This document shows positions 60,592 to 63,793 of a stretch of DNA of 64,000 bases, in pieces (the first letter of the stretch is position 1; each line of letters opens with the position of its first letter). The position numbers were made by a program, and so were the translations under genes. Location of the stretch: assembly GCA_003144015.1 (NCBI GenBank), contig QFWS01000007.1:62001-126000 (forward strand). The letters run 5' to 3'. The notes under the pieces are model-generated. The model had not been told where the DNA came from. It saw nothing but the letters and a program-made list of their open reading frames with translations, and searched no databases. The DNA comes from Flavobacteriaceae bacterium LYZ1037. Lineage in GTDB: Bacteria; Bacteroidota; Bacteroidia; Flavobacteriales; Flavobacteriaceae.

Positions 60592-61407
60592 ATGGAAAAA
60601 TTACCAAAAATTGCTTTACCTACTATCATTATTGCTATAGTACTTGTTATTTTACTTGCTAAATCTGCTGTGACCATTGGTTCTGGAGAAGCAGGTGTTT
60701 TATATAAAACGTTCGATAATGGAGTCGTTACAGACCAACCACCTTTAGGTGAAGGATTTCATATTGTAGCACCTTGGAATAAGGTATTTATTTACGAAGT
60801 AAGACAACAAGAGATTCTAGAGAGAATGAGTGTATTATCGTCTAATGGATTAGATATTAAATTAGAAGCCTCAATTTGGTTTCAGCCAGATTTTGCTCAA
60901 TTAGGAAAATTACACCAAGAAAAAAGTGAAATGTATAAAGAGCGTGTATTATTACCAGCTATTCGTTCGGCAGCAAGAAGTGTTGTAGGACGTTATACGC
61001 CAGAACAGTTGTATTCAAGTAAGCGTGATGCTATTCAACAAGAAATTTTTGAAGAAACTAAAAAAATTGTCGAAGATCAATATGTTCAATTAAATGAGGT
61101 TTTAGTTAGAGATGTTACTTTACCACCAACTATTAAAGAGGCTATTGAACGTAAATTAAAACAAGAGCAAGAATCTTTAGAATATGAGTTTAGATTAGTT
61201 ACAGCAGCTAAAGAAGCTCAAAAAGTAATTATTGAAGCAGAAGGTAAAGCAGAATCTAACAGAATTTTAAGCGCTTCTCTTACTGATAAAATCTTACAGG
61301 ATAAAGGGATTGATGCAACCGTTAAATTATCAGAATCTCCTAACAGTAAAGTTATTGTTATTGGTTCTGGAGACTCTGGAATGCCTTTAATACTTGGGAA
61401 TCAATAA
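60592..61407 (+). CDS. Prohibitin/SPFH-family membrane protein
   Basis: 271 residues. An N-terminal helix (IALPTIIIAIVLVILLA, about 6-22) anchors it; the SPFH/band-7 domain follows (about 30-200), and the coiled-coil part EAQKVIIEAEGKAESNR is typical. These proteins form large rings at membranes and control proteases such as FtsH. Clearly a real gene; the precise client is unknown. It begins 9 bases after the VWA-like gene. Confidence 0.93.
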   Translation: MEKLPKIALPTIIIAIVLVILLAKSAVTIGSGEAGVLYKTFDNGVVTDQPPLGEGFHIVAPWNKVFIYEVRQQEILERMSVLSSNGLDIKLEASIWFQPDFAQLGKLHQEKSEMYKERVLLPAIRSAARSVVGRYTPEQLYSSKRDAIQQEIFEETKKIVEDQYVQLNEVLVRDVTLPPTIKEAIERKLKQEQESLEYEFRLVTAAKEAQKVIIEAEGKAESNRILSASLTDKILQDKGIDATVKLSESPNSKVIVIGSGDSGMPLILGNQ

Positions 61408-61448
61408 AAAAAATAATATTTATTTAGGAATTGTAATTAATTATTTAC

Positions 61449-61456
61449 AATCTTTG
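61449..61456 (+). promoter_or_regulatory. Possible -7 box (AATCTTTG) of the his operon
   Basis: It has one mismatch to TAnnTTTG (A for the first T) and lies 18 bases before the leader ATG at 61475. A TTG at 61431-61433 could be the -33 element, though its spacing is shorter than usual. Confidence 0.35.
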
Positions 61457-61474
61457 TACTCACAAATAAGAAAC

Positions 61475-61531
61475 ATGACTTTTATTCAATTACATCATCA
61501 TCATTTTCATTCTGGCACTCAAGCGAGCTGA
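61475..61531 (+). CDS. hisL: Histidine operon leader peptide (18 aa)
   Basis: The frame encodes MTFIQLHHHHFHSGTQAS and then TGA. Five of 18 residues are His, four of them consecutive (61493-61504) and one at 61508. This is the standard look of a his leader peptide (E. coli HisL has seven consecutive His). It lies 121 bases before hisG, right before a strong terminator. The last codons ACT CAA GCG (61517-61525) pair with the terminator's 5' arm. The function is control by ribosome stalling, not a product of its own. Confidence 0.85.
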   Translation: MTFIQLHHHHFHSGTQAS

Positions 61532-61575
61532 AAATGTATTGAATAAAATCAACATATTTAAAAACCCGTTTGAGT
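61517..61575 (+). promoter_or_regulatory. Candidate antiterminator of the his attenuator
   Basis: ACTCAAGCG at 61517-61525 pairs with CGTTTGAGT at 61567-61575, nine consecutive pairs with one G-U. The second segment includes the 3' half of the terminator's 5' arm, so the two hairpins exclude each other. A ribosome at the leader stop would cover 61517-61525, while one stalled at the first His codons would leave it free. Confidence 0.65.
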
Positions 61576-61593
61576 AAATCAAACGGGTTTTTT
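61561..61593 (+). terminator. Attenuator terminator before hisG
   Basis: A 13-bp perfect stem (AAAACCCGTTTGA and complement) with loop GTAAA, followed by a T-rich run ending in TTT. It stands 60 bases before hisG and after no full-size gene of its own operon, which fits a conditional terminator. Confidence 0.88.
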
Positions 61594-61652
61594 ATTTCTT
61601 AAAAGTAGAAATTTCTTTCCAAAAGATTTACTCAAACATATTTAAACAAACA

Positions 61653-62510
61653 ATGAGTAAATTAAAAATTGCAGTGCAAAAATCTGGTCGTCTTCATGAA
61701 GACTCCATGAAATTACTTAAAGATGTTGGTATTTCTATCGATAATGGTAGAGACCAACTAAAAGCATCAGCCAAAAACTTTCCTATTGAGGTTTTTTATT
61801 TACGAAATGGAGATATCCCACAATACTTAAGAGATGGTGTTGTAGATGCTGCCATTATTGGTGAAAATATTTTATTTGAAAAAGGAAACGATATTCCTAT
61901 TACAGAAAAATTAGGCTTTTCGAACTGTAAAGTATCTCTTGCTGTTCCAAAATCTTCAACCTATAAATCGATTCAGGATTTACAAGGCAAGCGTATTGCT
62001 ACTTCTTATCCCAATACGGTTAATCAGTATCTAATTAAAAATAAGATTGAAGCACAACTTCATATCATTAATGGTTCCGTAGAAATAGCGCCAAATATTG
62101 GTCTTGCTGATGCTATTGTAGATATTGTTTCAAGTGGTAGCACCTTATTTAAAAATAACTTGAAGGAAGTAGAAGTGCTATTACAGTCTGAAGCGGTTTT
62201 AGCTGTATCACCTTTAATTTCTAGAGAAAATCTAGAGATTCTAAATAAATTGAAGTTTCGCTTTCAATCGGTTTTAAAAGGAAGGCAATCTAAATATGTG
62301 CTTTTAAATGCTCCCAACGATAGAATTCAAGATATAATTAATATCCTTCCAGGAATGAAAAGCCCAACAGTTCTACCATTAGCTGAAACAGGTTGGAGTT
62401 CATTACATTCAGTCATTAACAAAAATGATTTTTGGCACATAATAGACGAATTAAAACTTCAAGGAGCTCAAGGAATTTTAGTTTGTCCAATTGAAAATAT
62501 GGTTATATGA
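61653..62510 (+). CDS. hisG: ATP phosphoribosyltransferase, long form
   Basis: First step of histidine synthesis. 285 residues include the catalytic domains (KLKIAVQKSGRLHEDS; the PRPP-binding VDAIVDIVSSGSTL) and the C-terminal HisG_C regulatory domain (about 210-285) that binds histidine, so the enzyme is feedback-inhibited. No HisZ is needed. The gene overlaps hisD by 4 bases (ATGA). Confidence 0.96.
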   Translation: MSKLKIAVQKSGRLHEDSMKLLKDVGISIDNGRDQLKASAKNFPIEVFYLRNGDIPQYLRDGVVDAAIIGENILFEKGNDIPITEKLGFSNCKVSLAVPKSSTYKSIQDLQGKRIATSYPNTVNQYLIKNKIEAQLHIINGSVEIAPNIGLADAIVDIVSSGSTLFKNNLKEVEVLLQSEAVLAVSPLISRENLEILNKLKFRFQSVLKGRQSKYVLLNAPNDRIQDIINILPGMKSPTVLPLAETGWSSLHSVINKNDFWHIIDELKLQGAQGILVCPIENMVI

Positions 62511-63793
62511 AAAAAATAATAAATCCAAGTAGAGAAGATTGGTCAACCTTATTACAAAGACCAACACAGAAAGTTGAAAACATTGAAACAACAGTCAATC
62601 AAATTTTTGAGGATGTAAAAAAACATGGAGACACTGCCATTTCAAAATATACAGAACTCTTTGATGGAGCTGTTTTAGAGTCCAATATGGTAATTAAAGA
62701 AGAGTTTGAAAAAGCTTCAGAATTAGTTTCAAACGACTTAAAAGAAGCTATTTCAATAGCAAAAACAAATATTGAAAAATTTCACCAAGCTCAAAAAACA
62801 GATAATGTAGAAGTGGAAACATCAAAAGGGGTTATTTGTTGGCAAGAACAAAGACCTATAGAAAAAATTGGTTTGTATGTTCCTGGAGGAACAGCTCCTT
62901 TGTTTTCAACGGTTTTAATGCTAGCCATTCCTGCTCAAATTGCAGGCTGCAAAGAAATAATATTGTGCTCTCCTCCAAATCAAAAAGGCAATATTGCAAA
63001 CGAGATTTTGTATGCTGCACAACTTTGCGGTGTCACTAAAATATTTAAAGTTGGAGGTATTCAAGCTATAGCTGGTTTGACTTTTGGAACAGAAACCATG
63101 CCTCAGGTTTATAAAATATTTGGACCAGGAAATCAATTTGTAACAGTGGCTAAACAGTTAGCTACAAAATTCGGAGTAGCCATCGATATGCCAGCTGGAC
63201 CAAGTGAGTTATTGGTAGTTGCAGATAGTACAGCTAATGCAAGCTATGTAGCATCAGATTTGTTAAGTCAAGCTGAACATGGTGCAGACAGTCAGGTTAT
63301 TTTAGTGTCTTCTTCAAGAAAACTGATTAAGAACGTTGAGCTTGAAATTAAGATGCAAATCAAGGAATTACCAAGGAAAGAGATTGCAGAGAAAGCATTA
63401 TCCAATTCAAAATTAATTTATATGGAAAAGGATGCAGATGCCTTGAATTTAATAAACGGTTATGGACCAGAACATTTTATTATTTGTACTGAAAATGAGG
63501 ATTATTTTATAGACAATATTATAAATGCAGGTTCGGTCTTTATTGGTAATTACACACCGGAAAGTGCAGGAGATTATGCATCTGGCACCAATCATACCTT
63601 GCCAACTAATGGCTTTAGTAAAGCGTATTCTGGCGTAAATTTAGATAGCTTTACTAAGAATATCACCTTTCAAAAGATATCAAAGGTAGGTTTAAAAAAC
63701 ATTGGCAAAACAATCGAATTAATGGCTGAAGCAGAAGGTTTACAAGCTCATAAAAACGCGGTTTCAATAAGATTAAAAGACTTGTTATCATGA
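62507..63793 (+). CDS. hisD: Histidinol dehydrogenase
   Basis: Last two steps of histidine synthesis: histidinol to histidine with NAD and zinc. 428 residues; YVPGGTAPLFSTVLM, FGPGNQFVTVAKQL, DMPAGPSELLVVAD, SQAEHGADSQV, GPEHFI and GTNHTLPTNG carry the zinc and catalytic residues. It overlaps hisG and hisC by 4 bases each, a tight operon. Confidence 0.97.
   Translation: MKKIINPSREDWSTLLQRPTQKVENIETTVNQIFEDVKKHGDTAISKYTELFDGAVLESNMVIKEEFEKASELVSNDLKEAISIAKTNIEKFHQAQKTDNVEVETSKGVICWQEQRPIEKIGLYVPGGTAPLFSTVLMLAIPAQIAGCKEIILCSPPNQKGNIANEILYAAQLCGVTKIFKVGGIQAIAGLTFGTETMPQVYKIFGPGNQFVTVAKQLATKFGVAIDMPAGPSELLVVADSTANASYVASDLLSQAEHGADSQVILVSSSRKLIKNVELEIKMQIKELPRKEIAEKALSNSKLIYMEKDADALNLINGYGPEHFIICTENEDYFIDNIINAGSVFIGNYTPESAGDYASGTNHTLPTNGFSKAYSGVNLDSFTKNITFQKISKVGLKNIGKTIELMAEAEGLQAHKNAVSIRLKDLLS

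Follow-up and report, generated by a model that had tools for sequence, protein, structure and literature searches.

The window, by which we mean the whole stretch of 64,000 nucleotides from Flavobacteriaceae bacterium LYZ1037 that was analysed, contains a hisG gene preceded by a short leader peptide ORF, as an earlier note made from the sequence had stated (61475-61531; the other features of the locus are given in Table 1). The leader begins with an ATG at 61475, ends with a TGA at 61529-61531 and carries four His codons at 61493-61504 and a fifth at 61508-61510. Downstream of it on the forward strand, hisG is followed by ORFs at 62507-63793 and from 63790 onward, which we take to be hisD and hisC. 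The identity of hisG is backed by the hisG genes of relatives, the nearest named one being that of Bizionia arctica (90%). A putative promoter upstream of the leader consists of a -33-like TTTAGGA (61423-61429), which by eye is often TTTGGA in relatives, and a -7-like AATCTTTG (61449-61456), and implies a transcript start that would lie near 61461. The sigma-A box reported for F. psychrophilum is TAnnTTTG at -12 to -5 (PMC9723704, as far as its text was available). As a raw count, the motif [TA][AT]nnTTTG was found no more than 45 nt upstream of the leader ATG at 144 of 211 loci of the order, at a median distance of 19 nt.

Table 1. Features of the hisG leader region and the basis on which each was assigned
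Feature	Positions	Strand	Basis
Putative sigma-A promoter	61423-61456	+	window sequence; relatives by eye
Leader peptide ORF MTFIQLHHHHFHSGTQAS	61475-61531	+	sequence; relatives; shuffles
Segment 1, pairs with 61538-61548	61480-61490	+	11-bp perfect inverted repeat; in MFE
Segment 2, antiterminator strand within leader Thr-Gln-Ala codons	61517-61525	+	contrasts; Ala GCG bias
Segment 1', partner of segment 1	61538-61548	+	inverted repeat; MFE; contrasts
Segment 3, terminator 5' arm (61560-61573), loop (61574-61578) and 2 nt	61560-61580	+	terminator search; repeats; contrasts
Segment 4, terminator 3' arm and U tract	61579-61593	+	terminator search; contrasts
Element 5	61625-61637	+	exact reverse complement of 61568-61580; contrasts; shuffles; folding
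hisG (ATP phosphoribosyltransferase), lead gene of hisGDC	61653-62510	+	ORF list; relatives
Segment 6, hisG start-codon region TGAGTAAATT	61654-61663	+	partner of element 5 in readthrough RNA MFE

Eighty named contigs, 79 of them usable, supplied sequences upstream of hisG; more came from genome searches of the class, the family and the order, in which 56 of 119, 267 of 299 and 120 of 196 genomes, respectively, had a hisG match. Part of these matches was taken: 50 of the 56 matching genomes for the class; the returned loci plus alternate places among the 120 listed next for the family; and 40 regions hand-picked for diversity for the order. Besides the returned loci, 120 regions were taken by place. 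Locus L033 came without upstream sequence and was left out, and the hisG start codons of L115 and L119 were not found. Removal of identical upstreams (19 of 218 and 5 of 67) left 261, 215 from the order and 46 from outside it. Because the nearest named hisG is from Bizionia, a member of the Flavobacteriaceae and Flavobacteriales, we read the order as Flavobacteriales.

A His-rich leader, defined as a short ORF with at least three His within seven codons, preceded hisG in 213 of the 215 upstreams of the order and in 42 of the 46 from elsewhere in the same class (by batch, 195 of 199 and 60 of 62). Such an ORF occurred in 15 of 600 shuffled upstreams (2.5%), the shuffles being at most 350 bases long and the real stretches up to 450. 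The two members of the order in which no His leader was found before hisG, L275 and L276, have genomes of about 0.6 Mb; in L275 a hairpin and a T run are still present at that place. Leader-peptide attenuation is known from many bacteria, and the frequency of the His leader makes this one very probably a ribosome-mediated his attenuator, of a known kind. The comparison across hisG leaders that the earlier note had proposed as a check lends good support to its attenuator reading: order-wide conservation is seen for the His run and the terminator and, less strongly, for the antiterminator. It is very likely, judging from these sequences, that the region before the his genes is a histidine-sensing switch common to flavobacteria.

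The terminator that had been noted between the leader and hisG is present, with a stem one pair longer than the 13 bp given for it: a perfect 14-bp stem (61560-61573 with 61579-61592) closed by a loop at 61574-61578. With our own detector, an intrinsic terminator was found in this position in 211 of the 215 upstreams of the order; L026 and L251 have the leader, and the detector found no terminator in them. Pairings were compared among these loci by a swap test, in which pairs of loci that differ in segment 3 and are joined by non-overlapping paths in a HisG tree are scored for the fit of each segment 3 to its own downstream sequence versus its partner's. The tree was built with FastTree from 176 of the 211 loci, the 35 without a full hisG being left out, and pairs were chosen on it to allow for relatedness. 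In an early round on 78 loci, a swap matrix with a shuffle test had given p ≤ 0.01 in 53 of them. The first contrast test covered 152 hisG proteins and took in loci from beyond the order; its results fell short of those reported below: 20 vs. 8 for 3:5 (p = 0.018), 18 vs. 7 for the loop (p = 0.02), 12 vs. 6 for 2:3 (p = 0.12) and 20 vs. 15 for 5:6 (p = 0.25). After that result, 40 further full-length regions were added and the test was restricted to the order. In the restricted test, the terminator pairing 3:4, which served as a positive control, fitted its own partner better in 17 contrasts and worse in 0, with 1 tie, and a negative control from the promoter gave 23 vs. 22.

The antiterminator described in the earlier note also lies where it was placed, with ACTCAAGCG (61517-61525) able to pair with CGTTTGAGT (61567-61575) through nine base pairs, one of them G-U. 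Covariation of this stem, the other check that had been suggested, was found among the order loci (15 vs. 5 contrasts, 22 ties, p = 0.021), and per-locus shuffles gave p ≤ 0.05 in 164 of 211 loci and p ≤ 0.01 in only 62. Conservation of 2:3 across the order is therefore moderately supported. In the window, the Gln-Ala codons of the leader belong to segment 2, and Gln-Ala occurs near the leader end in 169 of the 211 order leaders with a terminator. The Ala codon is GCG in 158 of these 169, compared with 173 of 1467 Ala codons in hisG (79 loci). A stop inside segment 2 replaces the Gln codon at four loci (L005, L138, L160 and L217), and the bases downstream of it still pair. From the codon bias and these stop-codon loci, it seems that the RNA is conserved more than the peptide here. 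The stall logic proposed earlier was sound by footprint arithmetic on segment 2: with a ribosome footprint of the size generally assumed, a stall at any of the first four His codons would free 61517-61525 and a ribosome at the stop would cover it.

We find no support for the earlier claim of a layout simpler than that of E. coli, since there is a hairpin at the His codons and a conserved strand 3' of the terminator, both absent from the earlier note. The hairpin is a perfect 11-bp stem, 1:1', that encloses the His codons and was better matched within loci than between them in 27 independent contrasts vs. 14, with 44 ties (p = 0.03). As a whole, the leader RNA is predicted to fold more stably than shuffled sequences (z = -7.3). 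A 12-nt exact direct repeat, AACATATTTAAA, is found before the terminator (61551-61562) and again at 61635-61646, where it overlaps the end of the strand described next.

That strand, element 5, is 13 nt long and is the exact complement of the inner terminator 5' arm, the loop and two further bases. Segment 3 can thus pair through 61567-61575 with segment 2 and through 61568-61580 with element 5. With a 3:5 score of at least 20 as the call, element 5 was found at 151 of 211 order loci and in 75 of 4220 shuffled downstream sequences (1.8%); a clear element 5 is missing in the other 60, and outside the order this score was reached only in L093 and L113. Among the 80 contig loci, a partner scoring at least 22 followed 49 of 75 his terminators and 0 of 39 other terminators. 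Relatives keep the same complementarity in other letters, such as GTAAATC/GATTTAC, GACAATC/GATTGTT, GTACA/TGTAC, GTGTATC/GATACAC and GCAATC/GATTGC, and co-changes are seen in L188 (GATAATC/GATTATT), L204 (ATCTGAATAATC/GATTGTTCAGAT) and L250 (TGCCGAAGTGTTT/AAACACTTAGGCA). In L204, L250 and L252 complementarity is kept though the terminator arms changed too. Could all this be chance, or a plain terminator of the gene upstream? The terminator does sit 3' of the neighbouring ORF at 60592-61407, but the His leaders and the 3:5 partners are each so much more frequent than in shuffles (213 of 215 against 2.5%, and 151 of 211 against 1.8%) that we find such an explanation scarcely credible.

The contrasts argue strongly for the 3:5 pairing. 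Segment 3 fitted its own element 5 better in 28 contrasts and worse in 3, with 19 ties (p = 2e-6), and the loop and two adjoining bases alone gave 28 vs. 6 (p = 1e-4). The terminator leaves the loop without a pairing partner, so that complementarity between loop and element 5 counts as evidence separate from the terminator. The arm alone gave 7 vs. 3, which was not significant (p = 0.17), and a control that set segment 3 against hisG bases 4-30 was borderline (17 vs. 8, p = 0.054). One reading of the match to the exposed loop is action in trans, in which terminated leader RNA would regulate full-length his mRNA by pairing its own loop and arm with the element 5 of that mRNA. Attenuator RNAs that act in trans have precedents; nevertheless, an explanation in cis suffices, and we regard this one as very improbable.

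Element 5 starts 24 to 37 nt upstream of the hisG ATG in 128 of the 151 loci that have it. Over all 151, the spacer from element 5 to the ATG has a median of 16 nt (quartiles 15 and 20.5) and the spacer from the terminator to element 5 a median of 20 nt (quartiles 18 and 31.5), so that element 5 holds station with the hisG start more than with the terminator. We used these quartiles because the standard deviations (3.1 vs. 9.2 nt) come from 129 of the 151 loci, preselected for an element no more than 40 nt from the ATG, a choice that favours element 5. At six loci (L006, L007, L009, L011, L016 and L034) the spacer to the ATG is lengthened by a palindrome-like stretch, seen by eye, that looks like an inserted repeat (for example, CCCGCTTTCTCGGG in L006 and CCCACTTTCGTGGG in L011).

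Part of element 5 (61625-61634) can also pair with the hisG start, with one G-U, and is predicted to do so when the readthrough RNA of the window is folded. The region of the terminator loop (61571-61583) in turn repeats the hisG start (61654-61666; TGAGTAAATCAAA and TGAGTAAATTAAA, respectively), which suggests that the loop may be a decoy. We folded 153 loci, the 151 of the order plus L093 and L113. The predicted median openness of the start was 0.466 with 3:4 formed, 0.459 with segment 3 masked and 0.659 with 3:5 formed; a change from 3:4 to 3:5 raised it by over 0.1 in 127 loci, with the reverse in 2. A gain was predicted in 15 of the 18 loci whose hisG does not start with ATGAGT, and in the 60 loci of the order that lack element 5 the start is more open (0.62 vs. 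0.47, p = 4e-12). These predictions are consistent with a role of element 5 in opening the hisG start. They also weigh against a fail-safe repressor, in which a 3:5 duplex about 16 nt upstream of the ATG would block 30S loading, and 2:3, induced by the ribosome, would keep element 5 free and hisG translated. Element 5 does lie at the edge of the initiation region, and 2:3 would logically relieve such a block, but folding predicts a start that is more open, not less, in the 3:5 state. We consider this repressor improbable.

Covariation between element 5 and the start is weak. Contrasts for 5:6, which set the downstream sequence against the hisG start, gave 26 vs. 14 (p = 0.04); where both loci have element 5 the figures were 15 vs. 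9 (sign test p = 0.15, Wilcoxon p = 0.005). Diverged hisG starts are still matched by element 5 in L250, L252, L269, L234 and the TGTACTCA/TGAGTACA group. No clear 5:6 pairing was found at loci with ATGACAAAA starts or in L032, L214 and L053, and we rejected universal sequestration of the start by 5:6 on these grounds.

We favour a his leader attenuator in which the terminator 5' arm has three alternative partners and links termination to hisG translation, an account to which we give slightly better than even chances. The leader and terminator, 2:3 (moderately) and 3:5 (strongly) are supported by comparison; we infer that the ribosome stalls, that one strand displaces another and that hisG translation is affected, as well as the direction of that effect. 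When histidine is plentiful, the leader ribosome would reach the stop and cover segment 2, so that the terminator forms and transcription ends; in transcripts that leak through, 5:6 pairing would hold hisG translation low. When charged tRNA-His is scarce, the ribosome would stall at the His codons, segment 2 would capture segment 3 as the antiterminator and RNA polymerase would read through. Element 5, made next, could then displace segment 2 from segment 3, with the free AAATC serving as a toehold for its GATTT end, and the formation of 3:5 would free the hisG start, of which the terminator loop would be the decoy. Only readthrough RNA should be open to the action of element 5, since its transcription follows that of the terminator.

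Predicted energies bear on the displacement step. The terminator 3:4 has the lowest energy in 135 of 153 loci, and 2:3 and 3:5 are nearly equal, with a median difference of 0.4 kcal/mol and 3:5 the lower in 66 of 153; in the window 3:5 is favoured over 2:3 by 1.2 kcal/mol. With 3:4 the most stable and the other two so close, these energies do not show 3:5 winning in the cell. The start is predicted to be closed with segment 3 masked, as it would be in the 2:3 state, and the model therefore needs element 5 to displace segment 2.

A more sparing account would have a his attenuator that controls transcription alone, with element 5 merely refolding the readthrough mRNA, for example to open the terminator hairpin or in protection or processing of the 5' end, and with no role in hisG translation. 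Strong covariation of 3:5 next to weak covariation of 5:6 is what this account would lead one to expect, and at five loci with ATGACAAAA starts 3:5 can be retained even though 5:6 is not clear. However, the distance of element 5 is steadier to the hisG ATG than to the terminator, and in the folds masking element 5 opened the start more than masking any other sampled window at 124 of 148 loci, a specific effect. We therefore hold control of transcription alone to be unlikely, although it is the most serious competitor of the attenuator with three partners. The fullest version of the latter is more tentative, and we put it somewhat below even: that across Flavobacteriales the terminator 5' arm and loop mimic the hisG start and pass among three partners, namely the codons of the leader, the 3' arm of the terminator and an anti-start element, so that a single stall at His codons may switch both termination and access to the start in bacteria without Shine-Dalgarno sequences.

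Other amino acid operons were searched for a similar strand. In 18 trpE upstreams (L303-L320), taken from 41 PF04715 matches, a leader with adjacent Trp codons was present in all 18 (WWW in 16, WW in 2), with a hairpin between leader and trpE; in the window's own genome (L305) this hairpin is AAAGGCTTGTCATTCACGACAAGCCTTT and ends 18 nt upstream of trpE. No partner scoring at least 20 was found in any of the 18 (best 16), and these upstreams are trp attenuators without element 5. Neither the 10 ilvD nor the 8 thrA loci had a clear attenuator with a strand like element 5; L340 scored 20.5, but its hairpin consists of A and T only and it has no leader. A search for ilvD (TIGR00110) gave no match in the window's genome and a match in 2 of the 7 other genomes of the genus searched; from these matches, branched-chain amino acid synthesis is patchy in the genus.

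The enterobacterial his attenuator, His_leader (RF00514), was the best Rfam match of the window (33.2 bits, E = 0.0015). This is below the gathering score of 49 bits, and terminator-bearing families unrelated to it scored nearly as well (E = 0.0025). At gathering scores, 0 of the 20 relatives searched matched any family. No T-box was among the window's 26 matches with E ≤ 5, nor was the Bacteroid-trp motif RF01692, which is linked to trp leaders. The present element resembles the enterobacterial one in its leader with His codons, its mutually exclusive antiterminator and terminator and the hisG gene downstream. It differs in that the antiterminator strand lies in the last leader codons, that element 5 follows the terminator and that the host is without Shine-Dalgarno sequences; to our knowledge, the E. 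coli his attenuator has no strand like element 5. An attenuator survey by Vitreschak et al. (FEMS, 2004) reportedly names cases from Bacteroidetes/Chlorobi. RF01692, for its part, is like the present element a cis-regulatory motif of Bacteroidetes (PMC2864571, from the portion available).

Several published systems come close. In F. psychrophilum, a structured 5' element that precedes hisG, has no Rfam hits and occurs in further genera of the Flavobacteriaceae has been reported, together with strong clues for leader-peptide attenuation before amino acid operons; the available text describes neither a structure for the hisG element nor a tie to a His leader nor a strand like element 5 (PMC9723704). 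Very likely this is the same element as in the window, we infer. Short ORFs reminiscent of leader peptides are described in long 5' UTRs of Bacteroides thetaiotaomicron, with no hisG in the accessible text (PMC7366714), and His leader peptides are described in bacilli before hisS paralogues and hisZ, where the accessible text mentions neither hisG nor "Bacteroid" (PMC2965389). Attenuation variants that overlap the ribosome binding site are said, in the part of a further paper that was available, to be outlined in another work (PMC4833913). In F. johnsoniae, according to the part at hand, mRNA structure in the start region is one of the factors that tune translation initiation (PMC6847099).

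In B. subtilis, as far as the available portions of the papers go, single leaders are known that control termination and initiation jointly. In tlrB (PMC6851288) and vmlR (PMC12288461), as is proposed here, a leader peptide controls termination together with sequestration of the downstream initiation site. In tlrB, however, the leader responds to an antibiotic, both hairpins are blocked by the stalled ribosome itself and what is hidden is a Shine-Dalgarno sequence, and no terminator-arm decoy is described in the text available (PMC6851288). The trpEDCFBA operon is, like hisGDC, an amino acid operon with attenuation, and the initiation site of its first gene is hidden, as we propose for hisG, but its sensor is the TRAP protein rather than a leader ribosome (PMC12288461).

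In the open-access literature searched, to the extent that its text was available, we found no description of a strand after the terminator of an amino acid attenuator that is complementary to the terminator arm and loop, and the novelty therefore lies in a variant of a known attenuator. Comparison establishes a his attenuator throughout a large order for which attenuation is hardly described in the papers found. A strongly covarying strand that lies beyond the terminator would not be expected to affect termination, and the readthrough mRNA is its most likely target; dual control of an amino acid operon by one leader ribosome thereby becomes directly testable, and the proposed pairing offers a mechanism by which bacteria without Shine-Dalgarno sequences could hide a start codon. 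Set beside these systems, leader attenuation and the joint control of termination and initiation are known, and what appears new, against the literature searched, is the post-terminator strand complementary to the terminator arm and loop.
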